Origin: Amphiura filiformis
Lineage: Eukaryota > Echinodermata > Ophiuroidea > Amphilepidida > Amphiuridae
DNA length: 64,000 bases
Assembly: GCF_039555335.1 (NCBI RefSeq)
Contig: NW_027305498.1
Location: forward strand, 1 to 64,000
Direction: 5' to 3'
Part shown: positions 24,743-64,000 of the stretch, in pieces
Layout of the letters: each line of letters opens with the position of its first letter
Position numbering within the stretch: position 1 is the stretch's first letter
The notes under the pieces: generated by a model
The model's database searches: none
What the model saw: only the letters and a program-made list of their open reading frames with translations
Told to the model about the DNA's origin: nothing
Program-made: the position numbers and the translations under genes

Positions 24743-25059
24743 GGGGCAGGGTAAGCGTTAACCCCGATCAGGGGTGAATGACCCCTAAATTAAAAAAAAA
24801 TATTAATTTTTCACCCTCTATATTGGGAATATGTGCAAGCTCGGGGTGAACTCTGACCCTCTACTTTTGGACCTTACTCCTACCCTTGACTACACTGCAA
24901 AATATTTTTCACCCCGAGATTTAATTTTCACCCTATGTATTTGGATTTTCTGCAAGCTCGGGAGTGAAAAACACGGGAAAACAACCCCCGACTTTCGGGC
25001 CTTAATGCTACCCCGGGCCGGGGGGGGGGGGGGGGTAAGAAATCTTTGGCGAGCCGAAA

Positions 25060-25668
25060 GGGGGGGGGGGCAATGGATTTTTGGCAAGCCGAGAGGGAGG
25101 GGGCAAGTGATTTTTGACACACATTCACGGGGCGCCTTTTAATAAAACGCTCTAAAAGGCTTAGGAAAACAGTACCGTCGGAAATGCTTAAATATGCAAA
25201 TTTTCCTGCTCGCTGCGCTCGCAACATAGGCCTACATAAAGTTTGCAAATTGGGATCCCAAAAATTTGGCATGTTCAAAGTGGGGGGGGTGGCAAAGATT
25301 TTTGGCGGGCCCAGGGGGGCAAGCGATTTTGGCAGGCCGAAAGGGGGGCAAGCGAAAAAATTCTTTGCCCCCCCCCCTTGAACATGCCAAATTTTTGGGA
25401 TCCCAAATTGTAAACCTTAAATGGTCTAGATGTAGGCCTATGTTGCGAGTGCAGCGAGCATGAAAATTTGCATATTTAAGCGTTTCCGTACTGTTTTTCT
25501 AAGCCCAGTAGAGCGTTTGATTAAAAAGGCGCCCCATGAATGCATGCCAAAAATCGATTTCCCCCCCTCTTGGCTTGCCAAAATTGCTTGCCCTTCGGCT
25601 CGCCAAAATTTCTTGCCCCCCCCCCACAATTTCACCTTCCCCCAGGGCATAATTATTGCACAGCCCCT
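25060..25668. mobile_element. Foldback element 1, same family, left end eroded
   Basis: Inverted arms around a centre near 25335: ggcaagtgatttttgacac, cggggcgcctttt, aaatatgcaaattttcctgc, gggatcccaaaaatttggca and their reverse copies out to ataattattgcacagcccct at 25648-25668. The corresponding left terminus is not seen. The sequence there is replaced by a G run (25020-25035). Confidence 0.7.
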
Positions 25669-25876
25669 GATTGTACTACCAGCCCTTAAAAATTCTATAA
25701 CCCCCCTATTTTGGGTGCTAAAAAGTTATAACCCCACTATTTTTGGTCTAAAAATTCTATGACCTCCCCTCCCCCAGTATATATGGGAGCCACCCCCTTC
25801 CGAAGAAAATGGCAGCCTACTTAATTTATTTACGATAAACAATTTTATTACATGTACAGTTGTTGTTGTTGTAAGT

Positions 25877-26555
25877 AGGGGCTGTGCAATAATTATGAGC
25901 CCCCCGGTAAAATTTCCAAACGGTTCGCCAAAAATCGCTTGCCCCCCCCCCCCCCCTTTCGGCCTGCCAAAAATCGCTCGCCCCCCCTTTAAAGATGCCA
26001 AATTTTTGGGATCCCAATTTGCAAACTTTAAATAGTCTATATAAAACGCTCTAAAAAGGCTTAGGAAAACAGTACGGAAATGCTTAAATATGCAAATTTT
26101 CCTGCTCGCTGCGCTCGCAACATAGGCCTACATAAAGTTTGCAAATTGGGATCCCAAAAATGTGGCATGTTCAAAGTGGGGGTGGCAAAGATTTTTAGCG
26201 GGCCCAGGGGGGGCAAGCGATTTTTGCAGGCCGAAGGGGGGGGCAAGCGAAAAATTCTTTGCCCCCCCTTGAACATGCCAAATTTTGGGATCCCAAATTG
26301 TAAACCTTAAATGGTCTAGATGTAGGCCTATGTTGCGAGCGCAGCGATCAGGAAAATTTGCATATTTAAGCGTTTCCGTACTGTTTTTAGAGTGTTTTAT
26401 TATAAAGGCGCCCCATGAATGTGTGTCAAAATCGCTTGCCCCCCCCCTCGGCTTGCCAAAATTGCTTGCCCCCCCTTTCGGCTCGCCAAAAATCGCTTGC
26501 CCCTCCACCGTTTTACCCCTCCCACCACGGGGTTCATAATTATTGCACAGCCCCT
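25877..26555. mobile_element. Foldback element 2, G/C-run rich, terminal aggggctgtgcaataattat
   Basis: 679 bp bounded by AGGGGCTGTGCAATAATTAT at the left and its reverse complement at 26535-26555. Inside, long inverted arms are visible: aaatatgcaaattttcctgc with gctgcgctcgcaacataggc on one side and their reverse near 26322-26370 on the other. Homopolymer G or C runs join words such as ggcaagcgatttttgg. There is no transposase. A foldback or MITE-like family is inferred. Confidence 0.75.
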
Positions 26556-27372: not shown

Positions 27373-27902
27373 TTCATGCCAAAAGTGACCGCTTTTACTT
27401 ATCTATATTTCAACTAGCACTGCATAAATGTATTGATTTCACTGAAGTATTTGATGAACTAACCTAATATCTCTTGAATCTAAGATGACGGTCAATAACA
27501 CGAAACTAATCTAAAACACCCATTACATATTACAATGAGAAATACTGCACTTACTTTTTCTCACAATACACATGCAACAAGATGTGGGTATACAGGGTGT
27601 CCCAAACTGACCAGAATTACTTATAACAACCACTACATCACAAACCTTCAATAATTGTATGATCGATTCGTTTTTGTTTACAGCAAGCTAGCTCAAACTG
27701 CGCTGAAGAATATATTGAAGAGATATTATTGTCTCAATCATTTTCAACAATGGTCGAATTTTAAAATCCATGGTAATTGTCTGGCGGCTCACGAATGGGA
27801 ATTAATTATTCTTGGACACCCTGTAGTCATATTTACTTACATTTACTAAAATTACTAATATTATAATCAAATAACACCGATACTTACACTTGTTCAAAGT
27901 GG

Positions 27903-30435: not shown

Positions 30436-30633
30436 TTACTTTTTGCAAACAAACACATATTCGTCAGAACACTCGGAGTCACCCCATTCGTTTGATTCCT
30501 CTTCGAAACAGACACAATCTTGATTATTATAATCATTTGGTTGGCCAGATTTCCAGTTAGCATAGTTCACTTGAGTGCCATCACTCCACCTGTAGCTACC
30601 TTCATTGACCAGGTCATTGAATCCGATCCACGG
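30436..30633 (-). CDS. Exon E: C-terminal half of the C-type lectin domain and stop
   Basis: 198 nt including the TAA at 30438-30436; acceptor ttatttacag, phase 0. It encodes 65 residues starting PWIGFNDL (the WIGL core), then YRWSDGTQVNYANW, SGQPND, DCVCF, NEWGDSEC and YVFVCKK. These are the conserved blocks of a C-type lectin domain, with cysteines at 40, 55 and 63 of this exon in the canonical positions and an extra one at 42. The long-loop calcium/sugar motif reads QPN (neither EPN of mannose binders nor QPD of galactose binders), and the WND triad is WGD. Sugar binding is possible but its specificity cannot be read. The protein ends two residues after the last cysteine, without a CCP domain. 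Confidence 0.9.
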   Translation of the reverse strand, partial: PWIGFNDLVNEGSYRWSDGTQVNYANWKSGQPNDYNNQDCVCFEEESNEWGDSECSDEYVFVCKK

Positions 30634-30723
30634 CTGTAAATAATAAAGCACATAATTATTAGATTCAGTTACCAATATACATTTCGTAAAGTTAATGGGT
30701 CAAGACACACATTTTATGCATTA

Positions 30724-38570: not shown

Positions 38571-39006
38571 GAGAGTCTCCAAAAGGACAGTGAGCCGTGG
38601 TATTGGTTGCCCGTCTGAAGAAGATGATACCATCCTTTACTACTTGATTTGATATTATGAACTTTCAAAATCATAAAAAGAACGTGTTTATTAAATTAAA
38701 AACAGTTCTTAAAAATATCTGGTATCCTCTGTTCGCAGCGGTCACAGCGCTAGGGTCATTTGAAATAAATAATTCGTACAGTTAGTCGCTGATGATGGGT
38801 TACTCGAAAGGTAGAGCACTTTGATCCAACCCGAAGAAGTCCTCATCCGATATCTTCTCAGGACATTATTAATAGATATTTCATCAAAGTTCCAAAAACT
38901 GTTATCACATAACATAATAAGGTCAGTTTGGTTTTTATCCAAAGCCAAATTCGTAGATACACCCGGTTTTTATTTTCCTTCAATTTATTGGCATAATGTC
39001 ACTTAC

Positions 39007-39176
39007 CCAATGTGCACTCGCATTAAGCCCCCTGACAAAGCTGTTCTCTTCAGCGGAATGAATGCTCACAAGACGAGCTCCATATTGATTGATGCAGTAG
39101 TTGTCAGCATCAGACCATGATCTAGGACTGTCCACATATTTGTAGCAATTTCCTTGCCATTCAGGTTGACAAACGC
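39007..39176 (-). CDS. Exon D: N-terminal half of a C-type lectin domain
   Basis: 170 nt; the acceptor is cattgtag (39177-39178 being the AG) and the donor is CATTGG/gtaagtgac. It begins in phase 1 and ends in phase 0. The 56 full codons start VCQPEWQGNCYKY, the extra N-terminal cysteine pair of 'long-form' C-type lectin domains. Then come SWSDADNYC (first conserved domain cysteine) and ARLVSIHSAEENSFV, the typical second alpha-helix block of the fold. The segment stops just before the WIG core strand, which is encoded at the start of exon E. A start codon 27 bp upstream in the intron is not needed, because the acceptor joins it to exon C. Confidence 0.88.
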
Positions 39177-39267
39177 CTACAATGAGAAAAAGTAAAGACG
39201 ACATTATATTTGCTGGTAAATTGTGTTGCGCAGATACGACGCGTTGGTCGAGGTTGTAGCATTATAG

Positions 39268-44290: not shown

Positions 44291-45782
44291 GGGGGTGAAT
44301 CAAAATAGAGATAGACATTGATACGAGGGAAGGGCGACACTGTGGCCCTGCACAAGTGCATTGGGGTGCGACATGCTCACAAGCGGACCTTTGTGATTTA
44401 AGGGCTTATTTTCAACGTTTTTATAGAAAAAAGTAGACTTTGTCATTCTGATTGGCATGCATTTTGTCAAATTAATGTAGATCAATTTAAAAATGTCAGA
44501 CGAGAGGGCGCTAGACCATTAAAAACATAATCGTGTCTCTCCTGCTTTTCTTGACATAGGCATCCGCCCCTATTGAAATAAGCTGATTGGTACTTCAAAG
44601 TTAACACATAGGGTACGGTATGCAGATGAATAGCCAAATGATGTTTGCTATCTTCTGAAGATGAAATTCTGATTTAGGATTTATGTTTAATAATTATAGT
44701 AATTATGTTTTGATATGTTATGTTATTTTTCAAAAGTCAGTTTCTTTGAAAGCACTTCAATAAATTCCAGTCATAAATGTAATTTAAGCACATCCCGCCA
44801 ACTATATTATATTTACACGAATGATACGTTTCAAATACCACAGTTTTGATGCAAATTATTAAAGTATGTTATTTTTTTTCTAAAAATCATTATTTTTATT
44901 AAATTTAAGTATTTTTTTCCAAAGTTACTGTTTTAAAATACTTCAATCAATTCCTGTCAACAAATATCACGTATTTCAGGCGACTAAATCCCTACTCTTT
45001 CAAAATACAACGCCATTTTAAGCGAAATACGTAGTTCGCATAGGCTCAAAATGCACACCACGCAGTGTAAAATACATGATATTGGATATAAAAAGTGACC
45101 GTACCCTTATATCACGTGATGAAAAATCCAATATTTTCATATGAGTGACAAGATAAATAGTTTCTGCCTTTTGATGTAAAATTTGATGAAAATCCAAGCT
45201 ATGGTTGAAGAGATATGGGCAAAAAACACATCTTAAAATTTGATTTTTTTATACCTTTCAGGCAATGCTGGCCATAAATGTTGGGACGGTTTTGATAGGG
45301 TTATGTAAATAAGCCCCCACTCCCCCGGTCAATGTTGAATCCTACTTTTTTGGTCACGCGCGCCTAGTGGCACCCAACATTGATTGGTGGGGAAGGGGGA
45401 GGGTTGGGGTGTTAGAAAAGGATTTAGGCTTGACACTGAAGAAACCTCTACTTTATCACGTTAAAAATAACGGAAATACGGCCATAATACAGTGTACGTT
45501 TTCCATAAGTGTCCCAACACATTTTGGCCATGGTTGTAGTATTCATTGCAATGCAAGTTTTAGCAGATAATGTGGAAAAAACACGACAAAAGCTACACAA
45601 GGAAAGCAATTCTGTACAGGTGTGTTTTAGAAAGGATTTGAATTGAGCAAGAGTGGGTGATTTGCTGATATGTTCCGGGAGGGCGTTCTAGAGTATTGGG
45701 GCGGTAACAGTAAAGGCCCGTTCAACATCGGTCTTTGTTCGGGAACGGCCATGAGGTGGAATAGTGGAATATAAGGGCTGAT

Positions 45783-46529
45783 CAGTATGAAGGGGCAATA
45801 CCGTGCAACGCCGTGTACGCGAGGATTTTGACTGAGATTGATTCTTTCCTCAATCGGGAGCCAGTGAATGGCCTTTGAACACCCGGGGAGGGGGGGGGGG
45901 GTCACTCTCACACCCTCCCACCCGCGTCCGAACACCACTGAAATGCACCCTTAATAGCGAATTTTCACATAACCAAATTGCACCCCTTAATGGCAAAATC
46001 CTACCCTAAATGGCGTAGCACATGCAAAAACCATACCCTAAATGGCGTCCACTGAGAAATTTCTGAGAAATATACCCTAGGTGGCGTAAACAGGGACATG
46101 AGCTAATTTGATACCCAAGGTGTCTTTTTGATGTTGCAGACATAAGATACAGTATGAAGGGCCAATACCGTGCAACGCCGTGTACGCGAGGATTTTGACT
46201 GAGATGGATTCTTTCCTCAATCGGGAGCCAGTGAATGGCCTTTGAACACCCGGGGGGGGGGGGTCACTCTCACACCTCACAGTCCCACCTGCGTCCGAAC
46301 ACCACTGAAATGCACCCTTAATGGCGAATTTTCACATAACCAAATTGCACCCCTTAATTGCGAAACACATGCAAAATCCTACCCTAAATGGCGTAGCACA
46401 TGCAAAAACCATACCCTAAATGACGTCAACTGAGAAATATCTGAGAAATATACCCTAAGTGGCGTAAACAGGGAAATGAGCTAATTTGATACCCAAGGTG
46501 TCTTTTTGATGTTGCAGACATAAGATACT
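45783..46529. repeat. Tandem duplication, period about 370 bp
   Basis: The series gtgcaacgccgtgtacgcg, ttcctcaatcgggagcc, a G run, gtcactctcacac, accctaaatggcgt and gatgttgcagacataag occurs twice head to tail (offset 367 bp at the start and 378 bp at the end, because of small indels). Within each unit the word ccctaaatggcg recurs, which suggests an older internal repeat. Confidence 0.85.
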
Positions 46530-50753: not shown

Positions 50754-50867
50754 GTTTGTTACAGTTGTTCCCTTCCCAACCAGAAGCACAGCTACACACA
50801 TATTGATTATGTTGATCAACACATGTCCCAGCATTTAAGCATGGGTTGCTGGCACACTCGTCTATGT
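50754..50867 (-). CDS. Exon C: single EGF module preceding the lectin domain
   Basis: 114 nt, 38 codons, phase 1-1, acceptor ttttattccag and donor AAAC/gtgagta. It encodes [10 protein letters not shown], then [10 protein letters not shown], then GWEGNNCNK: one six-cysteine calcium-binding EGF with the hydroxylation-type consensus. The single leftover base C plus GC from exon D makes an Arg codon, giving NCNK-R-VCQPEW across the junction, so EGF passes directly into the lectin domain with almost no linker. A 99-bp tandem duplication lies 90 bp further into the following intron. Confidence 0.87.
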
Positions 50868-51994: not shown

Positions 51995-52779
51995 TAAGGC
52001 CCGCTAAAAGAATCCTTGTTTTATGATCCATTTTGCACATATTTAAGTTTAACAATTGAGGACCTGGGGCCCATAATATTTAAAATATTTAACTTGCCAA
52101 TCTAAAGCACTACAAAAATTCAACCATTATGGTAATACCAGATAAGTTTGGTCACCGGGGCTAAGACCAAAGCTTGACAAGATCGCTAGAACGTAAGTGC
52201 AGTATGAGCACACGTACTATGAACAAAAAAAGAAGAAGAACCTGAACCGGTAAACCTGAACTCTCGCAAAAGTCCAACGGTAAAAAATATAAAAAAATAA
52301 AAACACCGCCCAAACAAACTCAAGTCCCTTATCCTTTACCTTTATCCTCATTGCCTAAAAATGCAACAAAACGAAAATACAGAACTACGGCACACGGGGA
52401 CAAACGCGAGAAAAGGGACATTGACTCTGACCAAGTGACAATTTCTAATGGTCAAAAACATAGAGTTAGTAGTCACAAAATTTATCACTCAAAAAGTAAG
52501 ATTAGTAAACAAACTACTATATTGAAACATGTTGAAAACTGTTTTAACGATGTTTTAGTGCTGTAATATTTTAGTGTAAAATATGGTTTATTCTATATCA
52601 ATTAATGTTAGTTGCTTACGTAGTTCCAAAACCCTCACGTTAATTTTCACTTAGATAAAACGTCAAAAAACCCATGTAACTTCCATGCAAGAAATGTATT
52701 GTAATTATTATGATATTGCTAATTGGGAAAGAGTAATATCATTTTTATAATAAAGGCTTATGTCTGACATCAAAACAAA

Positions 52780-52842
52780 CATCAATGTCAACCTCACATG
52801 TCCGGTCATTATGGGAAGGTTCTGAAACACATTCATTGATAC
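52780..52842 (-). pseudogene. Relic EGF exon in the intron between exons B and C
   Basis: On the minus strand an acceptor-like tttttatgacag is followed, in the same phase 1 as the real EGF exons, by codons for GINECVSEPSHNDRTCEVDI. This resembles the first half of an EGF (compare DIDECTSRPC...GTC). The second cysteine is replaced by Ser (EPS instead of xPC), and after this the frame runs on without cysteines 4-6 and without a donor in the right place. I read it as a decayed, 3'-truncated EGF exon. The match is short, so chance resemblance is possible. Confidence 0.4.
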
Positions 52843-53047: not shown

Positions 53048-53158
53048 CTATGTCGCAGTTAGTTCCCTGCCATCCCGGGTCACAGCTACAGGAATACTGG
53101 TTGACATCATTAGCACACACGCCATTCAAGCACGGCCGTGAAGTACATTCATCTATAT
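53048..53158 (-). CDS. Exon B: single EGF module, GC splice donor
   Basis: 111 nt, 37 codons, phase 1-1. The acceptor is aataaatcag. The translated module begins DIDECTSRPC, carries CANDVNQYSC and ends GWQGTNCDI, with six cysteines in EGF order. It matches the second EGF of exon A closely, so the two are likely duplicates. The donor reads CATAG/GCAAGTG: a GC instead of GT, in an otherwise perfect donor context (AG/GCAAGT), as typical of GC-AG introns. No in-frame GT donor lies at this point, and the phase-1 exon end fits exon C exactly. Confidence 0.85.
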
Positions 53159-53159
53159 C

Positions 53160-53857
53160 TGATTTATTGGAAAATTAGGGAAAATGCTGGTTATTTGCAA
53201 TGCGCTACCTTCATTCCAGAATACCAGGGCAAGTGTACAAAAATTTAAATTGTTTATAAATTGCTTAAGAATGAAGGATAAATCATTCAAATTGTCATTT
53301 AGTAGACTTGTTAAGGGGTTGAATGCTGCATTTTTTTTTAATACAAAGGTCCCACTTGGCATGGATGTTCCTTAGGGCAAGAGAAAATATTTCATTCTAT
53401 GCATAAAACCCCAAAATATGGTATTTTCGTTTGGACCATTTCACCTAAAAAAAAACTAGAAATAGTTGAATTTGGCTAACTTTACCATGAATTAATTTTT
53501 TGGGTTGTTTGGAGAATCCGTGCCCATTTTGACCCTCAAATTCAAGATGGTCGCTTGCCGCCATCTTTAAAATCGCCGTTTTTACAACTTTTGAATCATT
53601 TGAGCTACAAACTTGAGTGACATATCAATTTGTACTAACTTGGGATTGGAAACTCATTTCTGGCATTGTTTATGTGATATGAGGTAATTTGAATAGGGTA
53701 CCGGGGTTTTTGAATGTGAATTCCAAGGGACCTGTCACTGGCTATATGGTAGAAGGATGAACATCAAACTTACTTACGAATATGTAAACCTTAAATTTTA
53801 GAAACAATTGAGGACACACTTTATAAGGCATGTTTTACACAGTTTTACTATTATTTT
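53160..53857. other. Intron sequence between exon B and the Penelope-like element
   Basis: No gene-like signal. A pyrimidine-poor AT-rich stretch runs up to the truncated 5' end of the Penelope-like element at 53858. Confidence 0.5.
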
Positions 53858-55216
53858 CAGAAAACATATCGTAACATATCTAAAGACGAATACAATGCTC
53901 TTCACACCATAAAGAACAACAGAAATATAGTCATCAAAGAGGCTGACAAAGGCTCCTCCGTCGTCATACAAGACAGAGATCAGTACATTGAAGAATGCAA
54001 TAGACATCTCAACAACGCCACACATTACAAAAAAACTTGAACATGACCCTACTACTGACTTTGACAAAACCACTTGTAAAGCTCTTGACAAGGCCTATCA
54101 AGTAGGCCTTATTGACAATGAGTTAAAAAGTGCTCTGAAACCAAAGAATCCAAATCCAGGTAGGTTTTACACTTTGCCAAAGATACACAAACAATACGAG
54201 AACATTCCACCTGGTCGTCCTATTGTTGGTGCTAACGGTACTGTCACTGAAAGAGTTTCTCTATTTATAGACCACCACCTTAAACCTCATGTTTCTACTC
54301 TTGATTCCTATGTCCAAGATGATATGGACTTTCTTCGCAAAATTGAGGCCATTAACGAAGATGGTCCCCATCCTCCTGATATCATCTTATCCACCTTGGA
54401 TGTTTCTTCTCTCTATACCAATATTCCTACCAAGGAAGGCATCAATTCCTGTCGCTCATTCTTAGAACCAGATTTTCCTCCTGAACAGCTTGACTCTTTT
54501 TGTAAACTCATAGAAGTTGTTCTCACGCATAACAACTTTACTTTCAATGGTACACACTACAATCAAATATTTTGGACCTCGATGGGCACGAAGCTAGCCC
54601 CGTCTATGGCTTGCCTCTTCATGGGTCTCTTGAAGAAACGACTTCTGGCATCTGCTTCTCTTAAGCCGCTCTTATGGATCAGGTACATCGATGACATATT
54701 CCTCATATGGACCCATGGTCAAGACGAACTCCAGCGCTTCATCGAACATTGCAACTCATTTCATCGCACAATCAAATTCACTTCGGAATCTTCCACAGAC
54801 AAAATTCCCTTTCTCGATGTTCTTGTTTCTTTCAAGGATGGCAAACTTCACACTGATCTATACTAGAAACCCACTGATATCCATCAGTTTCTTCACTGGA
54901 CCTCATGTCATCCTAAACACACAAAGCATAGTCTTCCATACAGCCTGGCCTTCCGTCTTAACAGGATCTGCTCTTCTCCCGAGACCCTTACCACCAGAAC
55001 TGCAGAACTTAAGGACTTCTTGAAGGCCAGAGGCTATCCTATAGGTGTCATTGACAGACAAGTTAGCAGAGCCCTTACTATACCCAGATCTGAAGCTCTG
55101 AAGCCAAGAGGCTCTGACTCTGACTCCAGTCCTGAACGGGTCCCTCTTGTGGTTACCTTCCATCCGTCTCTACCTAAGCTGTCTCAAATCCTGAACAAAC
55201 ACTTTTTTATCTTTTG
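53858..55216 (+). pseudogene. Penelope-like element, reverse transcriptase part (broken)
   Basis: Conceptual protein from QKTYRNISKDEY through EADKGSSVVIQDRDQYIEE (the N-terminal motif of Penelope-like proteins), GRFYTLPKIHK, GRPIVGANGT, LSTLDVSSLYTNIP (RT motif with Asp), TSMGTKLAPSMA, the catalytic YIDDIF and IPFLDVLV, to VVTFHPSLPKL. These are hallmarks of Penelope reverse transcriptase. Two lesions are visible: a run of seven A at 54029-54035, where six would keep the frame, and an in-frame TAG at 54864-54866 (DLY-stop-KPTD), after which the same frame stays open to 55216. The 5' end is truncated. It lies antisense to the host gene in the intron between exons A and B. The matching GIY-YIG part is at 58334-58804 beyond a LINE insertion. 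Confidence 0.9.
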
Positions 55217-58200
55217 ACATAGTATGTCAGGCAAAATGCCTTTTATTCACATTAAATACACTATAAATATTATAACAACAAAAGTTATTGCACTGCACAT
55301 AATCCATATATAATAGTAGATGTTATAAAACAAATTTACATACATGTATATAATAAGAAAATCAAACAAATAATTTAAGCAAAATGACAGAGCCAAGAAC
55401 AGACACGGAAGTCATCCAAGTAACTGTTCATCTGCGATCAACTAGCTAAAGTCATCGCAGACCAAACCTCTCATACGAAGTTCCTGCCTAAAGAGGAACA
55501 GAAGACAAGGATGATCCCCGTATCTGTATTTGCCAATGCACATTTTGCCAATACATATAACATAATTGATATATTTTGACCGATCACTGGTAATGTCATT
55601 ATGATAATTAAATAAAACATTTTCAACAGAAAGCCTAAAGTTCTTACCAAGCCTTTGTGTAATAACCCTGTTAGCAAATTCCCAAATAGGAGTGGTCTTA
55701 TTACAATGAAAAAAGAAGTGCTCTGGATGATCAACAGCATTACAGGAATTGCACAAATTTGTATCTTCTTTCCCCATTTTACATAATAAAACTTTTGTAG
55801 GATAAATGTTATGAATAATTGTCCAATTAAGTGAAATAAGTCTGGCCTCACTGGTACAACATGGTATTGAACCCCAAATCTTTTCCCAATCAAAATTGTA
55901 ATTGGGGAATCTTCTACACCAATAGTTCATACAAATTGGTTGGTGGAACATAAATCTTATCAACCATGGCATGTCTAAAAAACTTTGAAGAACAGGCTTC
56001 TATAGGGACTGCATTAAAGACAATTGATTCAGTCCTAATTTGGTCTAGAATTGGTGCATTCTTCCAATCATTCGGCAGAGCATTGCAAAGAGCGAAGTAC
56101 TGAAAAAGAATGTTGCCAGTGCGTGGAATGCGGTGCCTAAAATACTCAAGTGAGTAAATTGAACCATCATCATCAAAAAGATCTTTTATAAAAATAAAGC
56201 CAGCTTCAATCCAGTCTCTATAGAAAAGTGTTTTCTTGTTAACAGTTACAGCATCATTGTTCCAAATGATTTGATTGTAGTAATCAGATATGTCAGCTTT
56301 ATTTGAAGTACATTTAGTATTGAACCAGACTTTAAACATGTTGTTATAAAAAACAGGAAAGGTGTCAATAACATTCTTGCATACAGTGTTGATTTGGTTG
56401 AAGCTACAATTACAATTAAACACATTCATACCCAAACCAAACTTGTTGACATAGTAAAGTGGAATGTTCTTCCAGCAAGCAGGTCTAGAATTGTTTAGTT
56501 TTTTGATCCAAGACATCTTTAAAGCATTGAAAAACATCTCAACCTGAAATATGTTTATACCACCTCTTTCATAATCTGCAATAATGGTGTTCCGCTTCAC
56601 CGCTTCCACTCTATTCCAAATAAATTAAAAAACATAGTGTTTAATTTCTTTACAACTCTCTCAGGAAGGTCTACAACTGGAGCAATGTATGAAAGTTGTG
56701 AAGCCAACAATGTTTTCACGATCAAGTTTCTACCAACCATTGATAGGCCTCGCATCTTCCATGCACGGATTGAACACTCGATCTTATTCATTTTATCCTC
56801 CCAATTACAAGACAAATGATTTATTGAGATACTTGGGGAGAAATACACACCAAGGATTTTAACAGTGTTATTTGGCGCTAATTTCCAGTTAACATTTCCG
56901 ATGCCGAAATTATTATTTTTCAAGGACCCAATCCACACGGCATCACTTTTGGCATGATTTACTGAAAGACCAGATAATCTTGAAAAGTTATCAAATACAT
57001 CCATAACCGTTTTAACACATTCAGGGTCTTTTACAAAAATGGTAGTATCATCTGCAAAAGTAGAGATGCGAATTTCTTTACGCTCATAGTTCTCAAATGG
57101 TAAAGTAATACCCTGGATTTGCTTGGATTGACGAATTTTACAAGCGAGCAACTCCACACTAAGGACGAAGATCAAAGGCGAAATCGGACAACCCTGACGT
57201 ACGCCACAATTTACATCAAAGGAACTTGAGATGTGACCATTATTAATAATACAATTAGTGGTATTGGAAAAAATAACTGAAATCCATTTTCTGAACATTG
57301 AACCAAAATTCAATTTTCTGAGCGCATAAAATATAAAGTCACGTTCTATACTGTCGAATGCTTTTTAAAATCAATACACATCATAACACCAGGTAAATTA
57401 TTATTATCAACATATCTTAAAACATCTTCAATAAGGCGGATATTTTCGTGTATACTTCTACCCTTAACAAAACCATTCTGATCAGTATTGACAACAGACT
57501 GAAGAATGTTTTTAATACGAGCAGCCAATGCTTTAGTGGCTATCTTATAATCAATATTCAACAAAGCAATTGGACGCCAGTTATTAAGGGAATCCCGGGG
57601 AAGCCCTTTACCTTTATGAATGAGGGAGATTATGCCACGATTCTGACAGGTGGTAAGTGACCCAGAAAGATACGCATCATTAAGCGCCGTAACAACAATG
57701 GGACCAATCTTTGGCCAAAAGTGCTGATAGAACTCTACCGTGAGACCATCATAGCCAGGGCTTTTATTTTTTGCCATAGAATTGAGCGCGCCTACACATT
57801 CTTCTGCTGTCAAGATACCCTCACAGCTTTCACTCTGTTCATTAGTCAGAGTAGGAAAAATTGTATGTCGAAAAAACTCATCCAATTCTATTTCAGACAC
57901 ATCAACTTTGCTTTTAAACAAATCAGAAAAATAGACAACCTCTTCATTTAAAATAACAGATTGATCAGTTGTCATCACACCATTACTACACTGAAGTTTG
58001 TTGATTGACTTCTTAGAAGCATTTTTTTCCTCCAAATTCAGAAAATATTTAGTACATTTCTCACCTTCTTCAATCCATTTCTCTTTAGATCTTATTTGTA
58101 ACCCTTTCATAAAATGACTGTACATAACTTCATACTCCAGTTTACAAGCATTATACTGCAATTTCAGGTTCTCATCATCCGTCTGATTGATGCAATTTTC

Positions 58201-58333
58201 ATAAAGCTTTTGTAGTTTACATTCAATTTGCTTTAGCGCACTCATCCTCTGCTTTTGTGAGCCTTTTGCAAAATCAATTGTAAAACACCGGATTTTAGTT
58301 TTACATAAGTCCCTTTTACAGTCGCCTTTACAA
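55217..58333 (-). pseudogene. L1/Tx1-like LINE, 5'-truncated ORF2 with frameshifts, inserted in the PLE
   Basis: Minus-strand coding sequence from 58333 to a stop at 55442, then a 3' region to about 55217. It starts after the endonuclease domain. In order it shows EKWIEEGEKCTKYFLNLE, KSPGYDGLTVEFYQ, NWRPIALLN, QNGFVKGRSIHEN, MCIDFKK/AFDS, GVRQGCPISPL, the catalytic FADDTTIFV and a C-terminal Cys/His block (LCNSCN...HFFFHC) like zf-RVT. These are ORF2 motifs of the L1/Tx1 group. Three single-base frame changes break it: one A missing from an A run near 57365, one near 56620 and one near 55925. It splits the plus-strand Penelope-like element and so is younger than it. No clear target-site duplication or poly-A tail was found. 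Confidence 0.88.
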
Positions 58334-58804
58334 CCTCCTCCCAGAGGCTCATTTACTTGTGGCCAATGCATATCGTGTAAACACACAAGCGTTGATCATC
58401 ATGACCATATTGATGGCCTTGGGCCAGTATCACACACTTATGAAGACACTACATTCACCAGCTCATCTACTGGAGACACCCACACTATCCACAAACATCT
58501 CAACTGTCAAACTGATAATGTTGTGTACCTCATCACTTGCACACAATGCCAAAAACAGTACGTAGGAGAAACAAGCCGCACTCTCGAAAAACGTCTGGTT
58601 GAACACTGTGCCGATGCCCTCCTCAACAGAAATACACCTGTTGCCAGACATTTTAATCAACCCGGCCACAATGCACGTAACATCTCAGTTATTTGTATCG
58701 ACAAACCACCCAAATCCTACAGTACTATGAGGAAGAAGTTAGAGAAGGATTGGATCGCTAAATTACAGACCAGTAACTCTCATGGTATAAACATGAAAGA
58801 GTAA
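58334..58804 (+). pseudogene. Penelope-like element, C-terminal GIY-YIG endonuclease part
   Basis: The frame starting PPPRGSFTCGQC at 58334 is open to the stop at 58804. It carries a CxxC-type cluster (CGQCISC), then NVVYLITC (the GIY strand), KQYVGETSRTL (YIG strand and catalytic Arg), HFNQPGH and a final KDWIAKL block. This is the GIY-YIG endonuclease that follows the RT in EN-positive Penelope-like elements. It belongs to the RT at 53858-55216: same strand, expected order, with the LINE between them. A linker of some tens of residues normally found between the two parts is absent, so the LINE insertion came with or was followed by a deletion. Confidence 0.88.
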
Positions 58805-59830
58805 TTTTCTGCCAGTGTATCCTTTTAGGCAATTGGATCTTGTTAGCATTTAATAATGGATCTAGACCTACATGTATTGTACATGCTTGATGTGTCAATT
58901 CACATTTGGCTTTCTTACTGTAGGCCTACTTGCTTGCTAATATTTGTCCATCTTTCAGTAGACCTTGTATCACTACCTATTTTGGCATATTTCATGCCAA
59001 TTAGTAACGGTATTTTACTGTGCTTTGGTTTTATTGATTTTAGGCTTTACCACTTTCATCTGTAGGCCTATCCACATGCTCTGAAGTGAATTTTAATCAT
59101 GTGTGGACCATTTGCATATTTTACTACCTCCCATCCACTCTTTTTCTGTATGCATGCTACTTAATAATTATTGCTACTACATTAATATTTGAGTACTCCC
59201 TGTACTTTATTGTTTTATTTAGCATTTTTTTTAACTTAAACAAAAAACAAAATAAATTTTTTAATTTTTATTTTTTAACACATGTATTTTGTAGGCTTAC
59301 AATACATGGGTTGTAATTTGCATATTACTCTTCTCTCTTTTAGTTTGAGTGACATTAGTCCACTTATCTCTCTCTATTCATTCTCTTCCTCTTCTATTGA
59401 CTGCGACCCCTCTTGACATTTACATCCTGTCAATTAGGACAATACCCTATTGTCCTGTGGTCATAGAGGTAAGACGTGCTTATTTTGCTCTGAGCTTTGT
59501 TTGCTACTGAGTTCTATTTGAACTTGCCTTCAGTTTTCGACTTGAATTTTATTTTACAATATGTAGTTTACATTGTTTGCTTTTATATTTTGTTGTCTGT
59601 CCCTGAAGTAGAGCAGTTTATCTGCTCGAAACGTCGGTTGTATTTTTGTTAACTTTGTCTACCATCCCTGTGGTTTTGGATTTTGGATTCTGGTTTAAAT
59701 ACTGCATTAGTTTTTATCTTGTCTTTGTCTTTGTTCCCCACACCAAGTTGGTATACCTGGCTCGAATCTTTCTATTATTTTCAGGCCATTCTATTGACAG
59801 CACCAAGCGTTATTTGATTTAAAATTACCA
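58805..59830 (+). mobile_element. 3' untranslated region of the Penelope-like element
   Basis: AT-rich non-coding sequence following the GIY-YIG stop, continuing to a hammerhead-like stem at 59603-59635 and a conserved tail up to about 59830. From 59132 onward it is shared with the tandem duplication, so the tail recurs at 61183-61880. The exact 3' end is not determined. Confidence 0.6.
59603..59635 (+). ncRNA. Hammerhead-ribozyme-like motif in PLE tail, copy 1
   Basis: CTGAAGTA, a perfect 6-bp stem GAGCAG/CTGCTC with loop tttat, then GAAACGTC. The layout (CUGA box, stem II, GAAA, minimal stem III, GUC) is that of the type I hammerheads known from Penelope-like elements. The first box departs from the consensus CUGANGA, so activity is doubtful. 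Confidence 0.5.
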
Positions 59831-59929
59831 GTATAATAGATGGATACATAATTATGACTGAAATTTATGTTTTTATTTTTCAGTCAGAGATGAACCAACA
59901 GTGCCACCGAGAGCCATTACAGGCCCGGG

Positions 59930-60125
59930 GTAAAATGAACGCATGCCCCCCCCCCCCATTTTTTACAGGTCACCTAAGGTTTCTTTTCTTTGTTGTATAG
60001 ACATTAAGGTATGTTCTTTTTTAATTTTTTACGGGCCCCCTAAGACCCCAGGCCTTGGGGTAACGCACCCCTTAACCCCCCTTGTCGGCGGCACTGTGAA
60101 CAAATTACAGATCCCGCATCGGTAA
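59930..60125. repeat. G/C-rich dispersed repeat block (also at 61983-62177)
   Basis: C-runs followed by 'cccctaagaccccaggcc' and 'ccttaaccccccttg'. Both copies lie in the tandem duplication, so the second is not an independent insertion. The open frame through it looks incidental. Confidence 0.5.
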
Positions 60126-60588
60126 AATGATGTGACCAACCTAAAAAATAGAAGCTTGTTATACATAACGGCTAAAAAATATCTCAGATCTCAGTGAGTA
60201 TTTCGATTTGCCCACCCTTGTAGTAGTAGATTATATCTCTGGTTGTGGCGGCGTTGCGAGCAGTGCAGTAGTAGAGCTATTGCAGAAGCGCTGTCAACCA
60301 ACAGAAGGTGGATCAGGCAAGGCTGATAAAGGCTGAGAAGAGTACATACCGAAACAGCCCGGTGAAAACAAGGTGAATATGAGCTGTGGCATGGTATGTG
60401 AATCCCTCATTGCATGCCTTTAGCAGTCTTTATATAAAGGCAGATATAGTTCTTGGAAACCGCACTGTCATAATTAGAAAAGCACAAGGTTTCAGGGAAC
60501 TTCTTGATTAAAAACATTGAAGACCATCGAGTATCTGGCACTGCTTTGACCACGTCTAAATTGACAAAACTCTATGATGACCACTTAC

Positions 60589-60813
60589 CTGCATCGCAGT
60601 TAATTCCATGCCATCCCGGTTCACAGTTACAATAATATTGGTTAATATCATTGACACATGTGCCTTTTACGCATGGTCCTGAAGTGCATTCATCTATATC
60701 TGCTTCGCAGTCAGGGCCTGTCCACCCACTTGGACATTGGCAAATAAAGCTGTTAACTTGGTCGATACAGAATCCTCCATTTTGGCAAGGGGAACTGTTG
60801 CATTCATCAATGT
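60589..60813 (-). CDS. Exon A: two calcium-binding EGF modules
   Basis: 225 nt, phase 1-1, acceptor ttccgaacag and donor GCAG/gtaagtg. The first EGF runs from DIDECNSSPC to GWTGPDCEA. The second, with a shorter C2-C3 spacing (PCVKGTC), runs to GWHGINCDA. Both carry the acidic DIDE motif before the first cysteine and an aromatic residue before the fifth cysteine, as in calcium-binding EGFs of fibropellins, fibrillin and Notch. The second module is the closest relative of the single EGF in exon B. It sits 7.4 kb upstream of exon B, with a Penelope-like element and a LINE in the intervening intron. Two EGFs in one exon suggests an old intron loss between modules. Confidence 0.88.
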
Positions 60814-60871
60814 CTGTTCGGAAATGAGGGTTATTCAATATCTGTTATATTTGATATTGTTTCAATGTTCC

Positions 60872-60873
60872 AA

Positions 60874-60908
<35 letters not shown>
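60872..60908. repeat. (TA)n microsatellite
   Basis: About 18 TA repeats in unit 1 of the tandem duplication; the equivalent place in unit 2 (62930-62941) has only about six. This is a length difference acquired after duplication or between haplotypes. Confidence 0.9.
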
Positions 60909-60910
<2 letters not shown>

Positions 60911-61653
60911 CTACCAGCTGTAACAAAAACCAATCTATGGATCACTTATTGACGTTTCACCTTCATCTATGACATACTTCTTTGTCTTATTAATTCATAT
61001 ACTTTTAGCGTTTTTAAATGAAAGGACTGTATCCAACCCCATTAGTATATATACATGTAGAAGACATTTGGCTGTTTGATATTTCTGGCCATGTGATTCG
61101 CTGATTTAAGCCTACCACGAAATTTTAAGAAGTCAAGATTGCATCTTGGACGTCTAAGTATTTCGCGGAACACTTATATCAACATCCACTCTTTTTCTGT
61201 ATGCATGCTACTTAATAATTAATGCTACTACATTAATATTTGAGTACTCCCTGTACTTTATTGTTTTATTCACCATTTTTTTTAACTTAAACAAAAAACA
61301 AAATAAATTGTTTAATTTTTATTTTTTAACACATGTATTTTGTAGGCTTACAATACTTGGGTTGTAATTTGCATATTACTCTTCTCTCTTTTAGTTTGAG
61401 TGACATTAGTCCACTTATCTATCTCTATTCATTCTCTTCCTCTTCTATTGACTGCGACCCCTCTTGACATTTACATCCTGTCAATTAGGACAATACCCTA
61501 TTGTCATGTGGTCATAGAGGTAAGACGTGCTTATTTTGCTCTGAGCTTTGTTTGCTACTGAGTTCTATTTGAACTTGCCTTCAGTTTTCGACTTGAATTT
61601 TATTTTACAATATGTAGTTTACATTGTTTGCTTTTATATTTTGTTGTCTGTCC

Positions 61654-61686
61654 CTGAAGTAGAGCAGTTTATCTGCTCGAAACGTC
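61654..61686 (+). ncRNA. Hammerhead-ribozyme-like motif in PLE tail, copy 2
   Basis: Identical to the motif at 59603-59635, carried by the second unit of the tandem duplication, 2051 bp away in the same orientation. Confidence 0.5.
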
Positions 61687-62242
61687 GGTTGTATTTTTGT
61701 TAACTTTGTCTACCATCCCTGTGGTTTTGGATTTTGGATTCTGGTTTACATACTGCATTAGTTTTTATCTTGTCTTTGTCTTTGTCTTTGTTCCCCACAC
61801 CAAGTTGGTATACCTGGCTCGAATCTTTCTATTATTTTCAGGTCATTCTATTGATAGCACCAAGCGTTATTTGATTTAAAATTACCAGTATAATAGATGG
61901 ATACATAATTATGACTGAAATTTATGTTTTATTTTTCAGTCAGAGATGAACCAACAGTGCCACCGAGAGCCATTACCGGCCCGGGGGTAAAATGAACGCA
62001 TGCCCCCCCATTTTTTACAGGTCACCTAAGGTTTCTTTTCTTTGTTGTATAGACATTAAGGTATGTTCTTTTTTTTATTTTTACGGGCCCCCTAAGACCC
62101 CAGGCCTTGGGGTAACGCACCCCTTAACCCCCCTTGTCGGCGGCACTGTGAACAAATTACAGATCCCGCATCGGTAAAATGATGTGACCAACCTAAAAAA
62201 TAGAAGCTTGTTATACATAACGGCTAAAAAATATCTCAGATC

Positions 62243-62605
62243 TCAGTGAGTATTTCGATTTGCCCACCCTTGTAGTAGTAGATTATATCTCTGGTTGTGG
62301 CGGCGTTGCGAGCAGTGCAGTAGTAGAGCTATTGCAGAAGCGCTGTCAACCAACAGAAGGTGGATGAGGCAAGGCTGATAAAGGCTGAGAAGAGTACATA
62401 CCGAAACAGCCCGGTGAAAACAAGGTGAATATGAGCTGTGGCATGGTATGTGCATCCCACATTGCATGCCTTTAGCAGTCTTTATATAAAGGCAGACATA
62501 GTTCGTGGAAGCCGCACTGTCATAATTAGAAAAGCACAAGGTTTCAAGGAACTTCTTGATTAAAAACATTGAAGACCATCGAGTATCTGGCACTGCTTTG
62601 ACCAC
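62243..62605 (-). pseudogene. Possible hAT-type transposase relic in duplication unit 2
   Basis: A minus-strand open stretch begins MVKAVPDTRWSSMFLIKKFLE, which recalls the 'TRW.S' block of hAT-family transposases. The remaining 100 residues do not look like a transposase in the same frame, so it is at best a short decayed piece. The equivalent DNA at 60191-60553 in unit 1 carries the same sequence with a few changes. It sits in the intron directly downstream of exon A'. Confidence 0.25.
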
Positions 62606-62640
62606 GTCTAAATTGACAAAACTCTATGATGACCACTTAC

Positions 62641-62865
62641 CTGCATCGCAGTTAATTCCATGCCATCCCGGTTCACAGTTACAATAATATTGGTTAATAT
62701 CATTGACACACGTGCCTTTTACGCATGGTCCTGAAGTGCATTCATCTATATCTGCTTCGCAGTCAGGGCCTGTCCACCCACTTGGACATTGGCAAATAAA
62801 GCTGTTAACTTGGTCGATACAGAATCCTCCATTTTGGCAAGGGGAACTGTTGCATTCATCAATGT
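62641..62865 (-). CDS. Exon A': two calcium-binding EGF modules (duplicated copy)
   Basis: 225 nt, 75 codons, phase 1-1 (symmetric). The acceptor is ttccgaacag and the donor is GCAG/gtaagtg. It encodes two complete six-cysteine EGF modules with no intron between them, each starting DIDEC. The first has CIDQVNSFIC and the second CVNDINQYYC. Both fit the C-x-D/N-x4-F/Y-x-C pattern of calcium-binding, beta-hydroxylated EGF domains. The encoded 75 residues are identical to those of exon A, 2052 bp away; I see only a synonymous difference (cacatg against cacacg in the plus strand). This is the most 5' exon of the gene seen in the window. It could be a true extra exon pair or an assembly duplication of exon A. 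Confidence 0.85.
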
Positions 62866-63370
62866 CTGTTCGGAAATGAGGGTTATTCAATATCTGTTAT
62901 ATTTGATATTGTTTCAATGTTCCAATACCATATATATATATTAACTACAAGCTGTAACAAAATCCAATCTATGAATCACTTATTGACGTTTCACCTTCAT
63001 CTATGACATACTTCTTTGTCTTATTAATTCATATACTTTTAGCGTTTTTAAATGAAAGGACTGTATCCAACCCCATTAGTATATATACATGTAGAAGACA
63101 TTTGGCTGTTTGATATTTCTGGCCATGTGATTCGCTGATTTAAGCCTACCACGAAATTTTAAGAAGTCAAGATTGCATCTTGGACGTCTAAGAATTTCGC
63201 GGAACACTTATATCAACAATGGCAGAGCCAGAAATCCCAAACAGCCAATCATCTTATGTGTATTCAATTATTGACCAATGAAATGAACGCGTAAGATTTT
63301 ACACACCTAATATTTCTTGCACGTCTAAGATTGATAATTGTAGTGATGGACGGTATCACCAATGTGATAC

Positions 63371-64000
63371 CCAGCAAACACAAAAACGTTTTAAATAAGT
63401 TATATTTTGGCTTTTGGTTTAGGTAAAAACGTTTTAATAACATTAAAATGTCGGGTTATATAAAGGTTATGATAACGTTTTAAAACGTTTTGTATGAAAA
63501 CACACTACAACAATATTTTTAAATGTTTTCAAAAAATGTTATTGTAAACTATTTTTGCAAACATTTTTGCAAAATATTGTGTCAATACTTAAAAAACATT
63601 ATGTTAAAATATTTGAACCCAGGAAACACAGAAATGTTCTTTTAACCTTTTAATAACATTTAAATGTCGGGTTATATAAAGGTCATGAAAACGTTTTTAA
63701 ACGTTATTGAAAATATTTTGGGCAAACATTTTTCGCAAAATATTTTTCAACTCCCAAAATAACATTCTGTTTAGAATGTTTTGTATCAAGTTTTCAAGAA
63801 TGTTTTTGGAATGTTATTAAAACGTTTTTACACCCTTTATATAACCCGACATTTAAACGTTTTCTGTAAAACATTTTCGTTTGCTGAGCAGTAGATTATC
63901 AAAAAATGTTTTTTAAGGTTATGAAAACGTTTTATACTCTTAATATACCGTTTATATAACCCGACATTTAAAGGTTTTTGACAACCTTTTATAACCTTTT
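63371..64000. repeat. Foldback element with aacgtt words and 'gtcgggttatata' motifs
   Basis: Starts cccagcaaacacaaaaacg and contains at least two forward copies of gtcgggttatataaagg and two reverse copies of ctttatataacccgac, with many aacgtttt words. A reversed terminus (cgtttgctgagc) occurs near 63886, then a further partial copy runs off the window. This is a MITE-like palindromic repeat. Confidence 0.65.

Follow-up and report, generated by a model that had tools for sequence, protein, structure and literature searches.

An apparent tandem duplication of a double-EGF exon in an Amphiura filiformis contig

In the contig NW_027305498.1 of the Amphiura filiformis RefSeq assembly GCF_039555335.1, of which positions 1 to 64,000 were analysed (hereafter the window), two abutting units of about 2.05 kb each carry a complete exon that encodes two EGF modules. 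We consider it probable that this tandem duplication is real in the animal. The full account, namely a real intragenic tandem duplication of ~2.05 kb that arose by joining not mediated by repeats and left both exons spliced in, is also likely, and is held with marginally less confidence. If real, the locus provides a clean and young example of the lengthening of an EGF array, in which the breakpoints can still be read and the encoded modules are unchanged.

The duplicated units and their exons

On comparison of the window with itself by BLASTN, positions 59132-61184 were found to match 61183-63218 with 97.18% identity over 2060 columns, and the length and identity of this match rule out chance. 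The units lie head-to-tail with a gapless junction, and each contains the complete exon together with its splice sites (Table 1). In the global alignment of the two units 2000 columns are identical, and the 27 substitutions in 2027 aligned bases (1.3%), comprising 9 transitions and 18 transversions, are evenly spread along the units (Kolmogorov-Smirnov p=0.84). Three of the five internal indels (TTGTCT, a C run of CCCCC, and a TA repeat that differs by 18 bases) sit in clear short repeats or homopolymers; the other two are single bases, T and G. Three adjacent substitutions at 60023-60025 may represent one event, and the divergence is 1.2% once this triplet is left out, while the substitution at 60895, beside the TA repeat, may be an effect of the alignment.

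The exon is symmetric, being a multiple of three in length with phase 1 at both ends (class 1-1). Its splice sites are intact and identical in the two copies (acceptor GAACAG, donor GTAAGT). The copies agree at 224 of 225 nt, and the sole difference is a silent one, ACG against ACA, both encoding Thr; the encoded residues are the same, the initial residue of each copy being read on the assumption that the preceding exon ends in G. In a Pfam scan of 10 chosen protein stretches of the window, both copies score above the cut-offs for EGF (PF00008, 54 bits against 21.5, in two stretches) and for calcium-binding EGF (PF07645, 42.3 bits against 27). The modules are of the Notch type, their best solved matches being EGF chains of Delta and Notch.

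In this assembly there are thus two adjacent homologous exon copies in the same orientation, with flanking intron, which constitute a tandem exon duplication. The preliminary description of the stretch had proposed two head-to-tail units with near-identical flanking introns, each with a symmetric two-module exon and identical encoded residues, and all of these points are borne out by the alignments, splice sites, reading frame and Pfam matches. Its wider exon set holds in part: A', A, B and C are clear EGF exons, whereas the proposed exons D and E were not identified. One correction concerns orientation, as the gene lies on the minus strand and A' (62.8 kb) is hence the 5' copy. From A' to the end of the window no further EGF exon was detected.

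Table 1. Positions of the duplicated units, exons and neighbouring features within the window
Feature	Position	Strand	Description and basis
Duplicated unit 1	59132..61182		2051 bp; self-BLASTN and global alignment
Duplicated unit 2	61183..63217		2035 bp, directly abutting unit 1; self-BLASTN and global alignment
Exon A' (5' copy in gene)	62641..62865	-	Two EGF modules, 225 nt, phase 1-1; splice sites and frame; Pfam EGF 1.9e-14
Exon A (3' copy)	60589..60813	-	Two EGF modules, 225 nt, phase 1-1; splice sites and frame; Pfam EGF 1.9e-14
Intron between A' and A	60814..62640	-	1827 nt; holds the duplication junction 61182/61183
Exon B	53048..53158	-	One EGF module, 111 nt, phase 1-1
Exon C	50754..50867	-	One EGF module, 114 nt, phase 1-1
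Possible decayed EGF exon (weak)	52748..52842	-	Preceded by an acceptor-like CAG; lacks cysteines; 3' limit set where the open stretch ends
Reverse-transcriptase part of a presumed decayed Penelope-like element	53931..55217	+	Pfam RVT_1 4.5e-11 at 53931-54863; open reading frames, frames
GIY-YIG part of the same presumed element (start approximate)	58386..58801	+	Pfam GIY-YIG 4.2e-08 within open reading frame 58205-58801
LINE splitting the two parts	55442-58395 (open reading frames)	-	RVT_1 in two of its open reading frames
Hammerhead-like core letters downstream of GIY-YIG	59603..59633; second copy 61654-61684	+	Pattern match, two in the window
Open reading frame with C-type lectin match	38983-39261	-	Further 3' than the EGF exons; domain positions 2-44 of 107, above Pfam cut-off
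Open reading frame with C-type lectin match	30439-30699	-	Further 3' than the EGF exons; domain positions 38-107, above Pfam cut-off

Duplication or joined haplotypes, and the predicted protein

The alternative that survives best, although we regard it as rather unlikely, is an assembly artefact in which two haplotypes of one locus, with differing end and start points, have been laid end to end. Concatenation of overlapping contigs would also yield a perfect tandem unit, the differences between the units are evenly spread at an allelic-looking level, and false exon gains have been documented (PMC9516828). On the other hand, the 64,000 bases of the window contain no N, its long simple repeats are written out, and five other pairs of same-strand repeats (at least 80 bp, at least 88% identical and at most 60 bp apart) are likewise written out, of which one abuts exactly (45780-46528), one is of low complexity and one lies within a larger array. 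These features favour a real duplication. The ratio of transitions to transversions, considered as a sign of sequencing error, is not informative (9:18 in the units against 45:51 in the five other repeat pairs, p=0.27).

Some observations weigh against a real duplication that was joined as proposed and has both exons in use. A divergence of 1.3% falls within the allelic difference of a variable animal, and it could equally reflect two alleles. The two breakpoints have CA (2 bp) in common, yet at least two shared bases were seen in 17.8% of 20,000 simulated break pairs in the window, and this overlap is therefore uninformative. Further, conservation is not significantly higher in the exon than elsewhere in the unit (1/225 against 26/1802, Fisher p=0.35), which gives no sign of selection on the second copy.

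Given a real duplication, default splicing should include both copies, because exon A has phase 1 at both ends and the splice sites are kept in both. Judging from these intact and identical sites, inclusion of both exons should add 75 residues, that is two EGF modules, to the protein with the frame kept. It is improbable that A' and A are instead used alternatively, as mutually exclusive or cassette exons; according to PMC9013439, exons duplicated in tandem are frequently associated with a mutually exclusive choice, but the splice sites of the two copies are the same and their residues identical, so an exclusive choice would leave the product unchanged.

As regards age, the duplication had been called very recent, which is too strong, as a divergence of 1.3% fits a segregating allele as well as a long-fixed duplication; going by commonly quoted substitution rates, the latter can have been fixed for perhaps millions of years. 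To describe the locus as EGF expansion caught in the act likewise goes too far. It is doubtful that the extra double-EGF exon still segregates, with individuals differing in the EGF number of one protein. If it does, the identical modules would allow a direct test of whether the addition of EGF modules is neutral or selected.

Among other repeats of the window, the abutting pair at 45780-46528 is a second head-to-tail duplication, with a unit of ~366 bp and 92% identity. G-rich and C-rich repeat arrays occupy 25026-26555, and two stretches within them, 25026-25625 and 26066-26387, are each ~78% identical to their own reverse complement.

Breakpoints and the neighbouring retroelement

The left breakpoint, at 59132, falls ~330 bp past the end of the open reading frame with the GIY-YIG match, apparently within the 3' tail of an old Penelope-like element, a tail that would continue into unit 1. 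The right breakpoint is intronic and lies on the opposite side of exon A. In Penelope-like elements a single open reading frame encodes both a reverse transcriptase and a GIY-YIG endonuclease (PMC11167929). Here both parts are on the plus strand, with a minus-strand LINE and a stop between them, and we infer that they belong to one decayed element. The reverse-transcriptase part is itself decayed, with an in-frame stop at 54864-54866 and an apparent frame change upstream of this stop. A hammerhead ribozyme motif in the pseudo-LTR is a further mark of such elements. The core letters further downstream, at 59603 and 61654, are hammerhead-like and may represent this motif; no Rfam match was obtained in the whole window at the gathering threshold or in 58800-63400 at E up to 1.

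Repeat-mediated recombination was considered and rejected as the route to the duplication. Comparison of the 500-bp flanks found no direct repeat able to drive recombination or unequal crossing-over, and the best match in the three flank comparisons is an inverted AT-rich one of 54 bases that pairs the right flank with the beginning of unit 1 (E=1e-4), which is judged to be low complexity. The simplest mechanism would be two breaks, one in the tail of the element and the other in the intron beyond exon A, which end joining or template switching connected at two shared bases.

That the Penelope-like element itself drove the duplication, through recombination between its copies or through its habit of forming partial tandem repeats, is very improbable in spite of the position of the left breakpoint and although both units contain hammerhead-like letters ascribed to the presumed tail. 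Against the remainder of unit 1 and the right flank, the element pieces 53700-55300 and 58396-59760 gave no blastn match and one weak tblastx match (22 residues, E=0.03), and a retro-copy whose end coincides exactly with its insertion point would be unexpected.

Within the units, a frame of 126 residues (62246-62623, minus strand) is open in unit 2, and its counterpart near 60194-60571 in unit 1 is broken. One stretch of this frame resembles, and may be, a remnant of a hAT-type transposase.

Related exons and comparison with known systems

The neighbouring exons point to an older history of the array. Exon A consists of exactly 114+111 nt, which are the lengths of the single-EGF exons C and B, and the split falls at a phase 1 position; going by these lengths, it looks like two single-EGF exons whose intervening intron was lost. 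In the window, the second module of A is closest to exon B (87/111 nt), while the remaining five module pairs share 59-73 identities over 109-114 aligned bases. Together with the 224/225 agreement of A' and A, this graded similarity fits repeated exon duplication, and of several EGF duplications at the locus the event that produced A and A' would seem to be the youngest. When unit 1 and 58800-59131 were compared with 1-58799, three of the four matches were to exons B and C and the other fell at 27643-27684 (E=0.059). The possible decayed exon near 52.8 kb scores weakly (E=0.061 with an EGF hidden Markov model built here, E=0.076 by tblastn). Apparent older steps of the same process thus adjoin the duplication, in the form of exon B, exon C, the 114+111 exon and perhaps the decayed exon. 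The donor of exon B is apparently a GC site (AG|GCAAGT), as against the GTAAGT donor of exon A.

The two open reading frames with C-type lectin matches are on the same strand as the EGF exons, and we infer that they represent complementary parts of one C-type lectin domain in the same gene. The gene that carries the duplication would then be an animal gene whose product combines EGF modules with a possible C-type lectin domain. The modules resemble the EGF arrays of Notch and Delta in sequence type, with a DIDEC start and the match to calcium-binding EGF; however, no other Notch or Delta domain was found among the 10 scanned stretches, and the lectin matches point elsewhere. Relatives of exon A were also sought in two contig collections, which are viral or prokaryotic and say nothing about animals: no match was found in the viral contigs, and none of 27 pattern matches in the genome contigs (0/27) passed tblastn.

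Among the literature matches listed, none described a recent duplication of an EGF exon like the present one, which is not to say that the literature contains no such report. Class 1-1 module exons are already known to duplicate, and the locus is a good further example and not a new kind of event. With tandemly duplicated exons present in ~10% of animal genes, according to a 2002 study cited in PMC9013439, it serves as an illustration more than a surprise. PMC3927616 describes it as established both that class 1-1 domains are shuffled through intronic recombination and that such modules are prone to tandem duplication. As in the metazoan mosaic proteins treated there, a symmetric phase 1 exon encoding whole modules has been duplicated here with flanking intron and with the frame kept; in contrast to them, the exon holds two modules (114+111 nt), and one breakpoint lies apparently in the tail of a retroelement. 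The kringle IV type 2 (KIV-2) repeat of LPA, a unit of ~5.5 kb whose copy number is highly variable between individuals according to PMC12123407, is similar in that a stretch of genomic DNA of kilobase size is repeated and extracellular modules are added with it. It differs in that its modules are kringles, present in many copies that vary between people, whereas the modules here are of the EGF type and the unit occurs in two copies in one assembly.
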